A DNA stretch of 64,000 bases from an uncultured Flavobacteriales bacterium (GTDB lineage Bacteria > Bacteroidota > Bacteroidia > Flavobacteriales_E > Vicingaceae), in assembly GCA_913056345.1 (NCBI GenBank), contig CAJXMH010000014.1, positions 1 to 64,000 of the forward strand, in the 5' to 3' direction. Positions 10,114 through 27,827 of this stretch are shown here, piece by piece (within the stretch, counting starts at the first letter, position 1; the number at the start of each line of letters is the position of its first letter). Below the pieces are notes generated by a model that worked only from the letters and a program-made list of their open reading frames with translations, did no database searches and was not told the DNA's origin. The position numbers and the translations under genes are program-made.

Positions 10114-11640
10114 ATGAAGAAAGCAAAGAAATTAGCACTTATCATTTTAGATGGCTGGGGCTATGGAAAAAGAGATGAAAGTGATGCCGTATTTCAAGCT
10201 CAAACTCCAGTTTTTGATGAACTCATTAAATCAAATCCAAATGCCACTTTAGTCACCGACGGCGAAAAGGTAGGTCTACCAAAAGGCCAAATGGGAAACT
10301 CTGAAGTAGGGCACCTGAATATTGGAGCTGGCAGAGTAGTCTACCAAGAGTTAGTCCGTATTAACCGAGCCATTGAAAGCGGTGAATTAGCCAAGAATCA
10401 AACACTTATCAATGCTTTTCAATACGCAAATGAGCGTAAGAAAGCAGTTCATTTTATAGGCTTAGTTTCCAATGGCGGAATCCATTCACATCAGAATCAC
10501 CTGATCGCGCTCTGCCAAATGGCCAAAGAACTCAAGGTTGAGAGAAGCTACATTCATGCATTTACTGATGGAAGAGATACTGATCCACATAGCGCAAAGG
10601 GTTTTATTGAAACTGTTGAGGAGGCTATCAGAGAGACTCCTACCAAAATTGCAAGCCTTGTAGGTCGTTATTATGCTATGGATAGAGACTTAAGATGGGA
10701 ACGCATTAAGCTAGCTTATGATCTTTTAACCAAAGGTAAAGGAGAAAAGTTTGAGACAGCGAAGGAAGGAATAGAGGCCTCTTATCAGGCAGGTATCACA
10801 GACGAATTCATCAAACCAATTGCCATAAGTGACAAGCAGGGAAATGCCTTGACGAAAGTCCAAGAAGGGGATGTTGTTATCAGTTTTAATTTTAGAACGG
10901 ATCGGTGCAGACAAATTACACGAGCACTACATCAAGAGGACTTCCCAGAAAATGGGATGCAAAAAATGAATTTGCATTACCTCACCATGACCAATTACAA
11001 CGATAGTTTCGAAGACGTTAAGGTAATATTTAAGAAAAACAACCTAGAAAACACCCTAGGTGAAATGCTTAGCAAAGCAAATAAAAAGCAAATCAGGATT
11101 GCAGAAACAGAGAAATATCCACATGTCACATTTTTCTTTTCAGGAGGGAGAGAAAAGGTTTTTGAAGGTGAAAAGCGCATCATGGTCAACTCACCAAAAG
11201 TTGCTACTTATGACCTACAACCAGAAATGAGTGCCGGCGAAGTAACAGATAAGATCGTAGAAGAAATAAAGACCGAATGGGCTGATTTCATTTGTTTGAA
11301 TTTTGCTAATCCGGATATGGTTGGCCATACCGGAGTTAGAGAAGCTATTGTAAAAGCGGTAGAAACGGTGGATTCTTGTCTTGGAAAAATAGTTGAAACT
11401 GGAAAATCGCATGACTATTCATTCATCATTATTGCTGACCATGGAAATGCGGATTACATTGTAAATAATGATGGCTCTCCCCACACGGCGCATACCACTA
11501 ATCCTGTTCCTATTATCCTTGTTGATGGTAACAATGATCAAATTAAGTCAGGTAAATTAGCCGATGTTGCGCCTACGATTTTAAGCTTAATGGGACTTAA
11601 AATACCTGAAGAAATGAACGGAGAAGTGCTGATTTATTAA
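10114..11640 (+). CDS. gpmI: 2,3-bisphosphoglycerate-independent phosphoglycerate mutase
   Basis: This 508-residue cytosolic enzyme interconverts 3- and 2-phosphoglycerate in glycolysis. The alkaline-phosphatase fold is clear. ILDGWG (11-16) holds the metal Asp, GQMGNSEVGHLNIGAGR (59-75) contains the catalytic Ser63, and HAFTDGRDTDPHSA (about 148-161), GRYYAMDRD and IADHGNADY (about 441-449) supply the remaining metal ligands. Length equals the family norm of 505-515. It stands between mscS and an M20 peptidase, with its own -7 box directly upstream, so it is probably transcribed separately. Confidence 0.97.
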   Translation: MKKAKKLALIILDGWGYGKRDESDAVFQAQTPVFDELIKSNPNATLVTDGEKVGLPKGQMGNSEVGHLNIGAGRVVYQELVRINRAIESGELAKNQTLINAFQYANERKKAVHFIGLVSNGGIHSHQNHLIALCQMAKELKVERSYIHAFTDGRDTDPHSAKGFIETVEEAIRETPTKIASLVGRYYAMDRDLRWERIKLAYDLLTKGKGEKFETAKEGIEASYQAGITDEFIKPIAISDKQGNALTKVQEGDVVISFNFRTDRCRQITRALHQEDFPENGMQKMNLHYLTMTNYNDSFEDVKVIFKKNNLENTLGEMLSKANKKQIRIAETEKYPHVTFFFSGGREKVFEGEKRIMVNSPKVATYDLQPEMSAGEVTDKIVEEIKTEWADFICLNFANPDMVGHTGVREAIVKAVETVDSCLGKIVETGKSHDYSFIIIADHGNADYIVNNDGSPHTAHTTNPVPIILVDGNNDQIKSGKLADVAPTILSLMGLKIPEEMNGEVLIY

Positions 11641-24521: not shown

Positions 24522-25211
24522 ATGAGAATTTTGATTAGTGGAGCCAGTAAAGGCTTAGGTAAAGCATTAGCAGAAGAGTTAGCAGCAGCCTCTTATAACC
24601 TAATTTTAGTGGCAAGAAGCAAACCGTTATTAAAAGACCTTAAAGAAAGACTTGAAAGTACTTATCAGGTTGAGGTGGAAGTTATTTCGGCTGACCTTAC
24701 TGATAAAACTTCCTTTAAACTAATTGAAACAGCCTTCAAAGAAATAGGCTATCCAGATGTGATCATCAATAATTTAGGAGTATACCTTGAAGATGAGATT
24801 ACCGAATTAAAAGAAGAAACAATCAATCAACAGTTAGCGCTGAATTTTAAGAGTGCTGTTAGAATGAGTCAATTGGTTGAAGACCATTACAAGCAGAAAG
24901 GCGCAGGTTTGATTCTCAATATCAATTCAATCATGGGACTAGAAGCAAAAAAAAGAGCTGTTTCCTATTCCATTAGTAAACATGCATTAAAAGCTTGGTC
25001 AGATAACCTTAGAGAAGCTTACCGTAATGATGGGGTTAAGGTCTGTTCAATTTACCCTGGAGCTATTGATACAACTTCTTGGGATGGACTAGAGGTTGAC
25101 CGCAGTAAAATGATTCAAAAAGAGGATATTGCGAAACTCGTGCTTAGCGTTTTAACCTTAAGCCCCTCGACTCTGGTAGAAGAAATACGCCTCTCTCCAT
25201 TAAATTTCTAA
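24522..25211 (+). CDS. Short-chain dehydrogenase/reductase
   Basis: This 229-residue Rossmann-fold oxidoreductase has the cofactor loop ILISGASKGLGKALAEEL (residues 3-20), the NNLG motif (about 83-86), catalytic Ser (INSIMGL), and YSISK (Tyr-x-x-x-Lys, about 147-151). The loop after beta2 (ARSK) suggests NADP preference. Substrate cannot be told. It has a convergent 12-base overlap with the response regulator gene. Confidence 0.9.
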   Translation: MRILISGASKGLGKALAEELAAASYNLILVARSKPLLKDLKERLESTYQVEVEVISADLTDKTSFKLIETAFKEIGYPDVIINNLGVYLEDEITELKEETINQQLALNFKSAVRMSQLVEDHYKQKGAGLILNINSIMGLEAKKRAVSYSISKHALKAWSDNLREAYRNDGVKVCSIYPGAIDTTSWDGLEVDRSKMIQKEDIAKLVLSVLTLSPSTLVEEIRLSPLNF

Positions 25212-25892
25212 ACGGTAACCTACACCCTTAACGGTAGCAATAAGACTTTCTCCTATTTTCTCCCTTATTTTTCTAATGTGAACGTCAACTGTTCTGCCCC
25301 TCACCTTTTCAAAGTTTTCCCAAACTGCATTTTTAATTTCATCTCTTGAAAACACTTTGTTGGGCTTGGAATTCAAGAGGGATAGAATTTCAAACTCTTT
25401 TTTAGGAAGATAATACTCTTTCCCTTGAGCGATAATTAAGTAGCGATCATAGTCAATAACCAAACTTTGACTTCTTTCTTCAATAACATTCCATGATTTT
25501 CTTTTCAGAATAGCTTTCAATCTACTCAACAAGACTCTTTCATGGATTGGGTGAAATAAAAAATCATCTGCACCGGACTCTAAGCCTTGAATTAAGGAAA
25601 CTTCCTCTTTGCGCTTGCTGACTAACACAATAAAAATATGTTTCCCTTCCTTGGAGTTTTTTATATTATGGCAAAAGTCAATTCCATTATTTCCTTGAAG
25701 CTCGACAGGTAGTATAATTAGATCTGTTTGTTTTTGCCTAACCTTTTCCAACAATTCGGATTCTGCTGAAACAGCGTCTACAATAAAGTCATCAGATCCC
25801 AAAAAATCAGCTAATGAAGTGAAGTTTTGCTTCTTGTCATCTACAAGTGTAATCCTATATCTGCCCATCTTTTGAATGTGAGCCACAAACAT
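25200..25892 (-). CDS. OmpR-family response regulator with a degenerate receiver
   Basis: This 230-residue protein has a receiver-like domain (1-125) and a winged-helix OmpR/PhoB domain (about 135-230; LPKKEFEILSLLNSKPNKVF, then VRGRTVDVHIRKIREKIG, VKGVGYRLEI). The acidic pair is kept (VDD, 17-19). The phospho-acceptor Asp is replaced by Pro62 (DLIILPVELQG), and the conserved Lys is replaced by His (FLFHPIHERVL). The receiver therefore cannot be phosphorylated in the usual way, whereas the DNA-binding half looks intact. A second in-frame ATG at 25868 (residue 9) may be the true start. No histidine kinase is adjacent. Confidence 0.9.
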   Translation of the reverse strand: MFVAHIQKMGRYRITLVDDKKQNFTSLADFLGSDDFIVDAVSAESELLEKVRQKQTDLIILPVELQGNNGIDFCHNIKNSKEGKHIFIVLVSKRKEEVSLIQGLESGADDFLFHPIHERVLLSRLKAILKRKSWNVIEERSQSLVIDYDRYLIIAQGKEYYLPKKEFEILSLLNSKPNKVFSRDEIKNAVWENFEKVRGRTVDVHIRKIREKIGESLIATVKGVGYRLEI

Positions 25893-26094
25893 AGAGGGTC
25901 AAAAAAAGAAAAGTGTTAAGCTTATTTTAAACAATAATGAAATGAATAGCAGGTCTTAGATAAAAATTACAGGCGCAAAAAGGGAGTAAATTCGACATAT
26001 AAAATTGAAAATGTGCGTGTTATGTTGCGCATTCAAACCTTAGCTTATTTTGTTTTCTTAATCCAAACTTAACATACAAGATTAAGCTTTCGTT

Positions 26095-26102
26095 TAGCTT
26101 TG
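26095..26102 (+). promoter_or_regulatory. -7 box of the Na/Pi cotransporter gene
   Basis: TAGCTTTG matches TAnnTTTG and lies 21 bases before the ATG at 26124. It overlaps the TTG at 26100, which argues against that TTG as a start. Confidence 0.5.
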
Positions 26103-26123: not shown

Positions 26124-27827
26124 ATGGATTTTTCACTTATTGACGGTTTAACTTTATTAGGTGCGCTTGGCTTTTTCATTTATGGAATGAAAGTAATGAG
26201 TGAGGGCATTCAACGCACAGCAGGTTCCAAATTAAGGGACATTTTAAGGGGAATGACCCAGAACCGCTATCTTGGAGTCTTTACCGGTTTTTTGATTACT
26301 TGTTTGGTTCAATCTTCATCTGCCACAACAGTTATGGTAGTGAGCTTTGCAAATGCAGGCCTTCTTAGCTTGATAGAGTCAATAGGGGTAATCATGGGTG
26401 CAAATATTGGCACTACCGTTACGGCATGGCTTATTGCCTTTTTTGGTTTTAAAGTAAAGATCTCTTCTTTTGCCTTGCCCATTATCGCGATTGGCTTTCC
26501 ACTTATGTTTGCTAAGAAAGCTTCCATTCGCTCTACAGCAGATGTTTTTATAGGGTTCGCTTTACTTTTCTTAGGCTTAGATGCACTGAAAAATGCAGTT
26601 CCAGATCTAAATTCAAACCCCGAAATACTTGAGTTTCTAGGCTCTTTTACAGGCTACGGGATACTTACAACAGTCATGTTTGTTGGAGTGGGCACAATCA
26701 TGACGATTATAGTGCAATCCTCTTCTGCGGCCATGGCTTTAACCCTTACCTTGCTTTTTAATAATGTGATCACTTTTGAAATTGCTGCTGCAATGGTGCT
26801 TGGTGAAAACATTGGAACCACGATCACAGCTAACCTAGCGGCTATAGTTGCCAATGTACATGCTAAACGAGCGGCAAGAGCACACTTGATTTTCAACGTA
26901 TTAGGGGTTACTTGGTTGATTTTGATTTTCCCAGTATTCATAGAGTTGATCGAATACTTGTGGAGCCCTGCTCAAAGAGCCTTACAAACCGTAATGAGTG
27001 ACATTGATAAGTCACAATCTGAATTACAATTGTCCCTTTTTCACACCGTTTTTAATGTGATTAATACCCTATTAATGATTGGCTTTATTCCTTTGATCGC
27101 GAGAGTAGTAACCAAACTTGTTCCCTCTAAGGGCCTGGAAGATGAAGCTTTTCATTTGGAATACATTGGAACAGGCACCATGGTTACCACCGAGGCTTCA
27201 ATTCTAGAAGCGAAAAAAGAGCTTTTACGCTTTGGCAAGATCACCAAAAAAATGACCGGATTTGTTTCGGGTCTGCTCACAGAAACTGACCGTAAAGCCT
27301 TTAAGAAAACACTGAGTCGAATAAAAAAATACGAAGAGATTACCGATCGGATTGAATCTGAGCTAGTAATTTACTTAGCCAAAGTTTCAGAAGGGGAATT
27401 AAGCGAAGAGGCATCGCTAAAGATTAGAGCAATGCTTTCTATAGCAAATGACTTAGAAACCATTGCTGATATCAATTTCACCATGTCGAAAATTCTGAAA
27501 AGAAAATCAGAAGATAAGATCTACTTTATTCCTTCGCAAAGAGAGAACCTACAAACGATGTTTAAGCTGTTGGAAGATGCCATGGATCAAATGCAAGAGA
27601 ACTTAGACAAAGAAAGCAATGAAGAAGGTCTTCAGGAGTCTTACGAAAATGAAAAAGCCATCAATAAAATGCGCAACACCCTCAAAAAGGAGCACCTAAA
27701 AAGTATTGAGAAGGGCGAATACAAATACGAAAGTGGTATGATCTACACTGATATGTTTGCTGCGATCGAGAGTGCAGGCGATCGAGTGATTAGCATTGCA
27801 GAAGCTGCTGCAGGTAAGATCAGTTAA
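26124..27827 (+). CDS. Na/Pi-cotransporter (PhoU-domain) family protein
   Basis: From the ATG at 26124, preceded by AAAAAAAGGAGC, the product has 567 residues. Two inverted transporter repeats carry the hallmark QSSSATTVM (about 64-72) and QSSSAAMAL (about 198-206), with GANIGTT and GENIGTT loops. A PhoU-like helical tail (about 335-560) follows. The family takes up phosphate with sodium at the inner membrane. It is divergent from the degenerate response regulator with about 230 bases between, so that regulator may act here, which is a guess. The 3' end overlaps the next convergent gene by 8 bases. Confidence 0.93.
   Translation: MDFSLIDGLTLLGALGFFIYGMKVMSEGIQRTAGSKLRDILRGMTQNRYLGVFTGFLITCLVQSSSATTVMVVSFANAGLLSLIESIGVIMGANIGTTVTAWLIAFFGFKVKISSFALPIIAIGFPLMFAKKASIRSTADVFIGFALLFLGLDALKNAVPDLNSNPEILEFLGSFTGYGILTTVMFVGVGTIMTIIVQSSSAAMALTLTLLFNNVITFEIAAAMVLGENIGTTITANLAAIVANVHAKRAARAHLIFNVLGVTWLILIFPVFIELIEYLWSPAQRALQTVMSDIDKSQSELQLSLFHTVFNVINTLLMIGFIPLIARVVTKLVPSKGLEDEAFHLEYIGTGTMVTTEASILEAKKELLRFGKITKKMTGFVSGLLTETDRKAFKKTLSRIKKYEEITDRIESELVIYLAKVSEGELSEEASLKIRAMLSIANDLETIADINFTMSKILKRKSEDKIYFIPSQRENLQTMFKLLEDAMDQMQENLDKESNEEGLQESYENEKAINKMRNTLKKEHLKSIEKGEYKYESGMIYTDMFAAIESAGDRVISIAEAAAGKIS

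Follow-up and report, generated by a model that had tools for sequence, protein, structure and literature searches.

The window analysed here, a stretch of 64,000 nucleotides from the genome (2.92 Mb in 66 contigs) of an uncultured Flavobacteriales bacterium, carries on its minus strand a gene for a PhoB-like regulator with an altered receiver domain, hereafter called pseudo-PhoB. The gene lies between a convergent short-chain dehydrogenase (SDR) gene and a divergent gene for a Na/Pi cotransporter. The features of this locus are the following:

24522..25211, plus strand: SDR gene, convergent neighbour, not part of the proposed mechanism; beside pseudo-PhoB in 9 genomes
25200..25868, minus strand: pseudo-PhoB gene, from its likely true start (222 aa)
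25251..25295, minus strand: recognition helix, residues 200-214, conserved
25296..25322, minus strand: residues 191-199 (WENFEKVRG), counterpart of the sigma-contact (transactivation) loop of E. coli PhoB, diverged
25551..25553, minus strand: His114, codon CAC, at the position of the conserved Lys
25707..25709, minus strand: Pro62, codon CCT, at the phospho-acceptor position
25886..25893, minus strand: predicted -7 element TATGTTTG, 18 nt past the box, overlapping the ATG at 25892
25912..25931, minus strand: predicted pho box facing pseudo-PhoB, TTTAAAATAAGCTTAACACT; score 12.5 with the held-out matrix
26057..26076, plus strand: predicted pho box facing the Na/Pi gene, CTTAATCCAAACTTAACATA; score 12.5 with the held-out matrix, and a match to the strict pattern
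26095..26102, plus strand: predicted -7 element TAGCTTTG, 18 nt past the box
26124..27827, plus strand: Na/Pi cotransporter with a C-terminal PhoU domain, 567 aa

The longest open reading frame, 25200-25892 on the minus strand, opens at the ATG at 25892 and encodes 230 amino acids, to which the residue numbers used here refer. Since this ATG lies inside the predicted -7 element (25893-25886), the true start is probably the ATG at 25868, an assignment based on the predicted promoter at 25886-25931 and on the starts of the orthologs; counted from there, Pro62 becomes Pro54 and His114 becomes His106. A preliminary description of the locus placed the divergent cotransporter gene about 230 bp away, which is correct when the distance to its ATG at 26124 is taken from 25892, and becomes about 255 bp when it is taken from 25868.

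The window protein matches the Pfam domains Response_reg (PF00072, 71.1 bits) and Trans_reg_C (PF00486, 77.4 bits), both above the cut-off, and shows the arrangement of the OmpR/PhoB family, a receiver followed by a winged-helix Trans_reg_C domain. Its best NCBIfam models are those of PhoB, which it matches at 143 and 140 bits, the cut-offs being 270 and 296; as the canonical PhoB of the same genome also stays under the NCBIfam PhoB cut-offs (214 and 231 bits), this is a weak test of PhoB identity. In the receiver, translation and alignment confirm the proline at the phospho-acceptor position and the histidine at the conserved Lys noted in the preliminary description, and the remainder of the pocket, Asp18, Asp19 and Ser92, is present. 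According to the available text of PMC12548384, a pseudo-receiver lacks at least one of five key residues (the Asp-Asp pair, the phospho-acceptor Asp, the Thr/Ser and the Lys), and with Pro62 and His114 the proposed assignment of the window protein to this class is borne out. The same two residues stand where a PhoB requires, next to the acidic pair, a phosphorylatable Asp and a Lys. As far as the sequence tells, pseudo-PhoB is a pseudo-receiver protein of the OmpR/PhoB family and not a functional PhoB. A structure prediction carried out with AlphaFold on two sequences, the window protein and one relative, gave a mean pLDDT of 49 and was not used.

The order was sampled through 46 genomes, belonging to one family and 16 genera, with the window protein as query, and a match at 1e-30 was obtained in 45 of them. 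Sorting the proteins by the five pocket residues gave 36 canonical rows (31 genomes), with the pocket Asp-Asp, Asp, Ser/Thr, Lys, and 34 degenerate rows (33 genomes). Thus, a second, degenerate PhoB-type paralog is present in 33 of the 46 genomes (34 proteins), and 32 of these 33 also hold a canonical PhoB (two of them partial), the exception being G022, which is 82% complete. No degenerate paralog was found in the other 13 genomes, six of which are less than 90% complete and in which weaker regulator matches were not gone through singly; among these 13, G004, G014 and G035 have two canonical copies. The second matches of twelve additional genomes were canonical in all cases, and a scan of genome contigs returned two loci, one of which is a distant cyanobacterial regulator (27% identity). 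Two degenerate paralogs, L084 and L085, occur in genome G018 (71% completeness, 5% contamination), where either contamination or a real duplication is possible.

Pro62 is common to seven genomes of four genera. At this position, the 34 paralogs have Asp (21), Pro (7), Glu (4), Ala (1) or Ser (1), and the nine proteins which share the synteny, that of the window included, have Pro in seven cases, Ala in one and Ser in one. Orthologs restoring the Asp, as a strain-specific or sequencing change at residue 62 would imply, are not what these relatives show, and we reject such a change; in particular, the six further genomes with Pro62 exclude a sequencing error. The claim that the acidic pair is intact holds for the window protein and not for its clade: the pair is altered in 33 of the 34 paralogs, Asp-Asp being found in none of the other 33 and Asp-Glu in one, and both residues are non-acidic in all the 21 paralogs with Asp at position 62. 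The Lys position is unchanged in 20 of the 34. In the other synteny-sharing proteins, the acidic pair and the residue at the Lys place read DN/H, QE/Q, KS/S, DG/E and DE/Q.

A tree inferred on all the alignment columns reproduced the split obtained by sorting the pockets, with no canonical row inside the degenerate clade. In this tree, from which one fragment (L064) was left out and in which an unrelated regulator served as outgroup, the support of the clade is 99/92 with 33 rows and 94/53 with 34 rows. The bootstrap of the tree had not settled, G040 joins the clade weakly, at the latter values, and long branches make the placement of those members that have diverged most (G040, G031 and G033) unsure. 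By these sequence comparisons, the paralogs belong to a single clade, placed next to canonical PhoB.

Nine genomes (the window, L041-L047 and L049) share the gene order SDR, pseudo-PhoB, Na/Pi cotransporter, small gene and LuxE-like gene. Elsewhere, the paralog directly follows a MORN gene on the same strand (17 genomes, 13 of which belong to genus g8) or adjoins a purine gene (six genomes, G008-G013). In 13 of the 17 MORN-linked genomes, the next genes on the fetched stretch encode a TonB receptor, a protein called c3 and the canonical PhoB, and genes for the Na/Pi cotransporter and for porin O/P lie upstream in some. These MORN-linked loci, with TonB receptor, c3 and canonical PhoB, resemble the PhoBR operon of Flavobacterium johnsoniae, for which the portion of PMC8115612 at hand reports that phosphate depletion induced the TonB receptor, lipoproteins and PhoB, and did not clearly induce OprP and PhoR. 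The c3 gene (about 400-485 aa; L048, L051, L052, L054, L056 and others) is conserved beside the TonB receptor and the canonical PhoB; its one member scanned gave no Pfam match, 24 of 25 regions upstream of it, in part training regions of the matrix described below, carry pho boxes, and by position it may be the counterpart of the FII lipoprotein of the F. johnsoniae operon. Versions of the Na/Pi cotransporter of 809-824 aa were observed in G004, G030 and G035. Within the window, no histidine kinase gene lies beside pseudo-PhoB, and no PhoR accompanies it; the kinase next to the canonical copy, on contig C3 of the same genome, has PnpS and PhoR as its best models.

In 177 regions upstream of Pho genes, 7-mers repeated at 11 bp occupy 1.74% of positions, versus 0.34-0.54% at lags of 8-10 and 12-15, divergent gene pairs entering the same region twice both in this count and in the motif search. 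The predicted phosphate box consists of the motif CTTAACAT recurring with an 11-bp period. To avoid circularity, the matrix was trained exclusively on promoters outside the window clade, those of the PhoB, TonB-receptor, c3 and porin genes (88 regions, 53 sites). When applied to the nine held-out intergenic regions between pseudo-PhoB and Na/Pi genes, its best site beats the shuffled sequences in 9/9 (P 0.03 or less) and scores at least 10 in 8/9. Across the order, a score of at least 10 is reached upstream of 31 of the 34 pseudo-PhoB genes (23/25 outside the window clade) and of 22/23 Na/Pi genes, and in 0/100 other upstream regions; the nine intergenic regions of the window clade serve both genes and are counted under both, and the G040 paralog has its upstream region in common with the training gene c3. 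Eight extra regions, in which a Pho gene lies on the other side of a divergent intergenic region, were tallied separately, and 7/8 score at least 10. The upstream regions of MORN (3/13), kinase (0/8) and ECF (0/6) genes are mostly devoid of a box at this score, which is present before all six purine-linked paralogs. In two other families, a score of at least 10 is found upstream of 8/9 paralogs against 5/77 other regions (gene strand), the matrix being less specific there than in the order, with its 0/100.

Specifically, the two boxes of our locus rank second and third by matrix score in the 64 kb. The top-scoring site of the window, at 11014-11033, falls inside the open reading frame 10114-11640, presumably a phosphoglycerate mutase gene, and was taken as a chance match. 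The strict box pattern has five matches in the genome, versus one in a backward control, and the site at 26057 is among the five; two others overlap each other on contig C24, just upstream of a 432-aa open reading frame with a lipoprotein-like start, and the remaining two have a matrix score below 10.

The distance from the boxes to the element TAnnTTTG, which is not part of the pho-box matrix, peaks at 18 nt (26/175) and then at 29 nt (15), all other distances occurring at most 3 times each; the 29-nt spacing corresponds to one repeat more than 18 nt, sometimes in the same promoter. The -7/-33 promoter consensus of the Bacteroidetes was taken from PMC6847099, which, in the part available, also reports that F. 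johnsoniae promoters almost never have G at the middle positions of the -7 element; each of the two -7 elements of the window has a G at one of these two positions. By inference, the predicted pho box would stand in for the -33 element. The pseudo-PhoB gene thus has, by prediction, a box in register with its promoter, as expected of a Pho-regulon member: score 12.5, and 18 nt to TATGTTTG. The link to the Na/Pi gene suggested in the preliminary description gains from the kept synteny and from the predicted boxes, and can now be made specific. All together, the boxes suggest that pseudo-PhoB is tied to the Pho regulon, and do not speak to the sign of the regulation.

Selection on the paralog could be estimated in the pairs in which dS is unsaturated. 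In four paralog pairs from three groups, dN/dS is 0.11-0.17, and the canonical PhoB gave 0.02-0.07 in three pairs; in the like-for-like pair G005/G006, the paralog has 0.17 and the canonical PhoB 0.02. As dS is saturated for the window gene and its nearest relatives, the low ratios apply to other relatives, and in these, as estimated from the sequences, the paralog is under purifying selection. A pseudogene is rejected on the grounds of the open frames and of the low ratios in four pairs of relatives.

We then compared the two domains region by region between degenerate and canonical proteins. The recognition helix (residues 200-214) shows an identity of 0.80 and, on sequence, resembles the box-reading helix of a PhoB, whereas the loop which precedes it (residues 191-199) shows only 0.19. 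The same loop has an identity of 0.78 among the canonical proteins themselves, 0.71 between these and the canonical proteins of other families, and 0.28 within the degenerate clade. The preliminary description, in which the DNA-binding domain was called intact, was accurate for the recognition helix and inaccurate for the diverged loop. In the receiver, the identity of degenerate to canonical proteins is 0.13 for residues 16-20, 0.33 for the beta3-alpha3 loop and 0.52 for the alpha4-beta5-alpha5 face, the fragment L064 and the unrelated regulator being left out of these comparisons of pocket, beta3-alpha3 loop and dimer face. The seven Pro62 proteins all retain the two acid-base pairs of the dimer face; outside this group, the 105-126 pair is lost in many members.

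In E. coli PhoB, the substitutions W184R, G185R, V190M and D192G in the loop are reported to abolish activation (PMC3973317, in the text available), and an acidic patch of the loop to face sigma region 4 (PMC3973317; also PMC1885438 and PMC3348028, likewise in part). The corresponding four residues of the window protein are Trp, Glu, Val and Gly; hence Trp191 and Val197 (E. coli W184 and V190) are retained, and the sigma-contact loop of a PhoB is altered by G to E and D to G. A distinct loop sequence, W-x-N-F-E-K/Q-V-R-G, is common to the window protein and the three relatives closest to it, and may serve some purpose. Three canonical proteins (G183, G094 and G130) have, like the milder paralogs, Asn at the position of D192, and E. 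coli E191 is replaced by Gly in most canonical Bacteroidia copies, so that the sigma contact may differ between phyla.

The paralog extends beyond the order. In a quick class-wide tree, the second PhoB copies of two other Bacteroidia families fall in the paralog clade (SH-aLRT 96). Nine rows were omitted from this tree (the L064 fragment, the unrelated regulator, two long-branched paralogs, four near-duplicate paralogs and one partial canonical protein), and long branches weaken the deepest joins of both the order tree and the class tree. The nine sampled copies of the two further families have milder pockets: that of G120 is complete, and in the other eight one acidic residue is changed to Ser, Thr or Ala, together with Asp to Glu in three of the eight. 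The loop is changed in all nine clade members of these families and, as this includes G120 with its full pocket, the sigma-contact loop was probably lost before the pocket. Four of the nine adjoin genes for carboxypeptidase-regulatory-like and MORN-repeat proteins, the same small neighbours that the paralog has in the order of the window; in family f21, CpD-like and MORN genes were observed beside the second PhoB copy at L126, L127, L128 and L133. Glu takes the place of the phospho-Asp in three class relatives, L128, L129 and L144 (DTETK, DTESK and DSETK). In some regulators, Glu in place of the phospho-Asp can mimic phosphorylation.

The lost pocket, the clade with its synteny, the helix kept next to a lost loop and the boxes at fixed spacing are read directly in the sequences; from them, we infer phosphorylation-independence, box binding, dimerisation and the sign of the effect. 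In the model that we prefer, which we regard as evenly poised between right and wrong, pseudo-PhoB would be a Pho-regulon-encoded, phosphorylation-independent and non-activating PhoB, competing or heterodimerising at the pho boxes as a feedback brake. At low phosphate, a PhoR-like kinase would phosphorylate the canonical PhoB, encoded elsewhere in the genome, and phosphorylated PhoB would bind the pho boxes just upstream of the -7 element, turning on the Na/Pi cotransporter and, via the second box of the same intergenic region, pseudo-PhoB. The latter would then take the same boxes, as a homodimer or as a heterodimer with PhoB, without phosphorylation or sigma contact, and further induction would be limited or shut off. 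As the pseudo-PhoB gene carries a box of its own, its product would act as a delayed negative feedback, the level of which would be set by pseudo-PhoB expression. On a broader scale, and with a confidence that falls short of even, we tentatively consider pseudo-PhoB a natural dominant-negative PhoB of the Bacteroidia, in which the loop would have been lost first and the pocket then stepwise, the helix and its own pho box being kept. The regulon would in this way contain a brake on the response to phosphate, the activity of which would be set only by its own expression.

The alternative that we take most seriously, unlikely as it seems to us, is a constitutive activator or feed-forward amplifier, which would use the same boxes without phosphorylation and contact the polymerase in a different way, so that Pho genes would stay on once induced. 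The changed loop may indeed contact the polymerase differently, which would leave room for activation; a distinct loop is common to the window protein and three near relatives, the OmpR loop is described as unlike that of PhoB (PMC1885438, in part), phosphorylation-independent activators such as ChxR and CmrT have been reported, and boxes are predicted before both pseudo-PhoB itself and the Na/Pi gene. However, the window protein has other residues at two of the four places which E. coli PhoB needs for activation, and a loop so poorly conserved across the clade would be odd for a working contact. The preliminary description had considered a constitutive regulator; in our reading, a protein that has lost its sigma-contact loop is more likely to be non-activating than to be a constitutive activator. 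Rather improbable, in our judgement, is a protein acting solely as a heterodimer partner, which would use the alpha4-beta5-alpha5 face to pair with PhoB, phosphorylated or not, and would alter the phosphorylation, lifetime or choice of boxes of the latter. The dimer face is the best kept receiver region among those measured, its two acid-base pairs persist throughout the Pro62 group, and precedents exist in CmrT/CmrR, for which such pairing is discussed, and in WhiI/BldM, for which it is reported. Against this, the well-kept recognition helix suggests a DNA contact of its own, and the 105-126 pair is missing in many other members.

To a ligand-sensing pseudo-receiver, with an altered pocket binding a metal or a metabolite, we assign a very low probability. 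Asp18 and Asp19 could form a site together with His114, and JadR1 and RedZ are mentioned as being under ligand control (PMC12632262, in part), but this combination of residues is unique to the window protein. The ligand-binding role put forward in the preliminary description is left unsupported, because the members of the clade have not conserved the old pocket, their residues 16-20 being only 34% identical. Finally, a functionless, decaying paralog appears hardly credible: the paralog does evolve faster than canonical PhoB and was not found in 13 of the 46 genomes of the order, but the frames are open, dN/dS is low in the four pairs, and boxes and helix are kept.

If the feedback-brake model is true, a PhoB duplicate can become its own antagonist by losing activation before phosphorylation. 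The intermediates of such a path are graded and traceable, from a full pocket with a changed loop, through the loss of one acidic residue and then of both, to the partial loss of the Asp. In addition, the system comes with predictions of both the binding site and the targets, the canonical PhoB of the same cell provides an internal control, and the sign of the regulation is clear enough to be tested; a 2025 review, in the text available, calls the on/off switching of bacterial pseudo-receivers a mystery. As a by-product for the order, the system provides a predicted pho box (CTTAACAT with its 11-bp period) and the register of this box to the -7 element.

Among the matches listed in our literature search, titles and the beginnings of abstracts named no degenerate PhoB paralog in Bacteroidota, a search that leaves subscription literature uncovered and the absence unproven. 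With the PhoB of Bacteroidia, pseudo-PhoB shares the two domains, a similar recognition helix, the best NCBIfam models and the association with Pho genes and predicted boxes; it differs in that the window protein is devoid of the phospho-Asp, the Lys, the sigma-contact loop and an adjacent histidine kinase. Degenerate receivers like that of pseudo-PhoB are described in the aspartate-less OmpR/PhoB regulators ChxR of Chlamydia, HP1043/HsrA of Helicobacter and RitR of Streptococcus, of which ChxR and HP1043 are said to work without phosphorylation; in the portions of the literature available, none of the three is described as a paralog coexisting with a canonical regulator and using the boxes of the latter. 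WhiI and BldM of Streptomyces are reported as atypical regulators that heterodimerise, as may be possible for pseudo-PhoB. These two proteins are of the NarL/LuxR-type family and not of the PhoB one. By analogy, the nearest parallel appears to be CmrT beside CmrR in Clostridioides difficile, where, according to the available text, an OmpR-family pseudo-receiver likewise works alongside a normal regulator. There, CmrR autoactivates the cmrRST operon, which resembles what the predicted boxes suggest that PhoB may do for pseudo-PhoB. The authors of that work considered a duplication of cmrR and cmrT unlikely and treated CmrT as constitutively active. Pseudo-PhoB, by contrast, clusters with PhoB and no longer has the activation loop.
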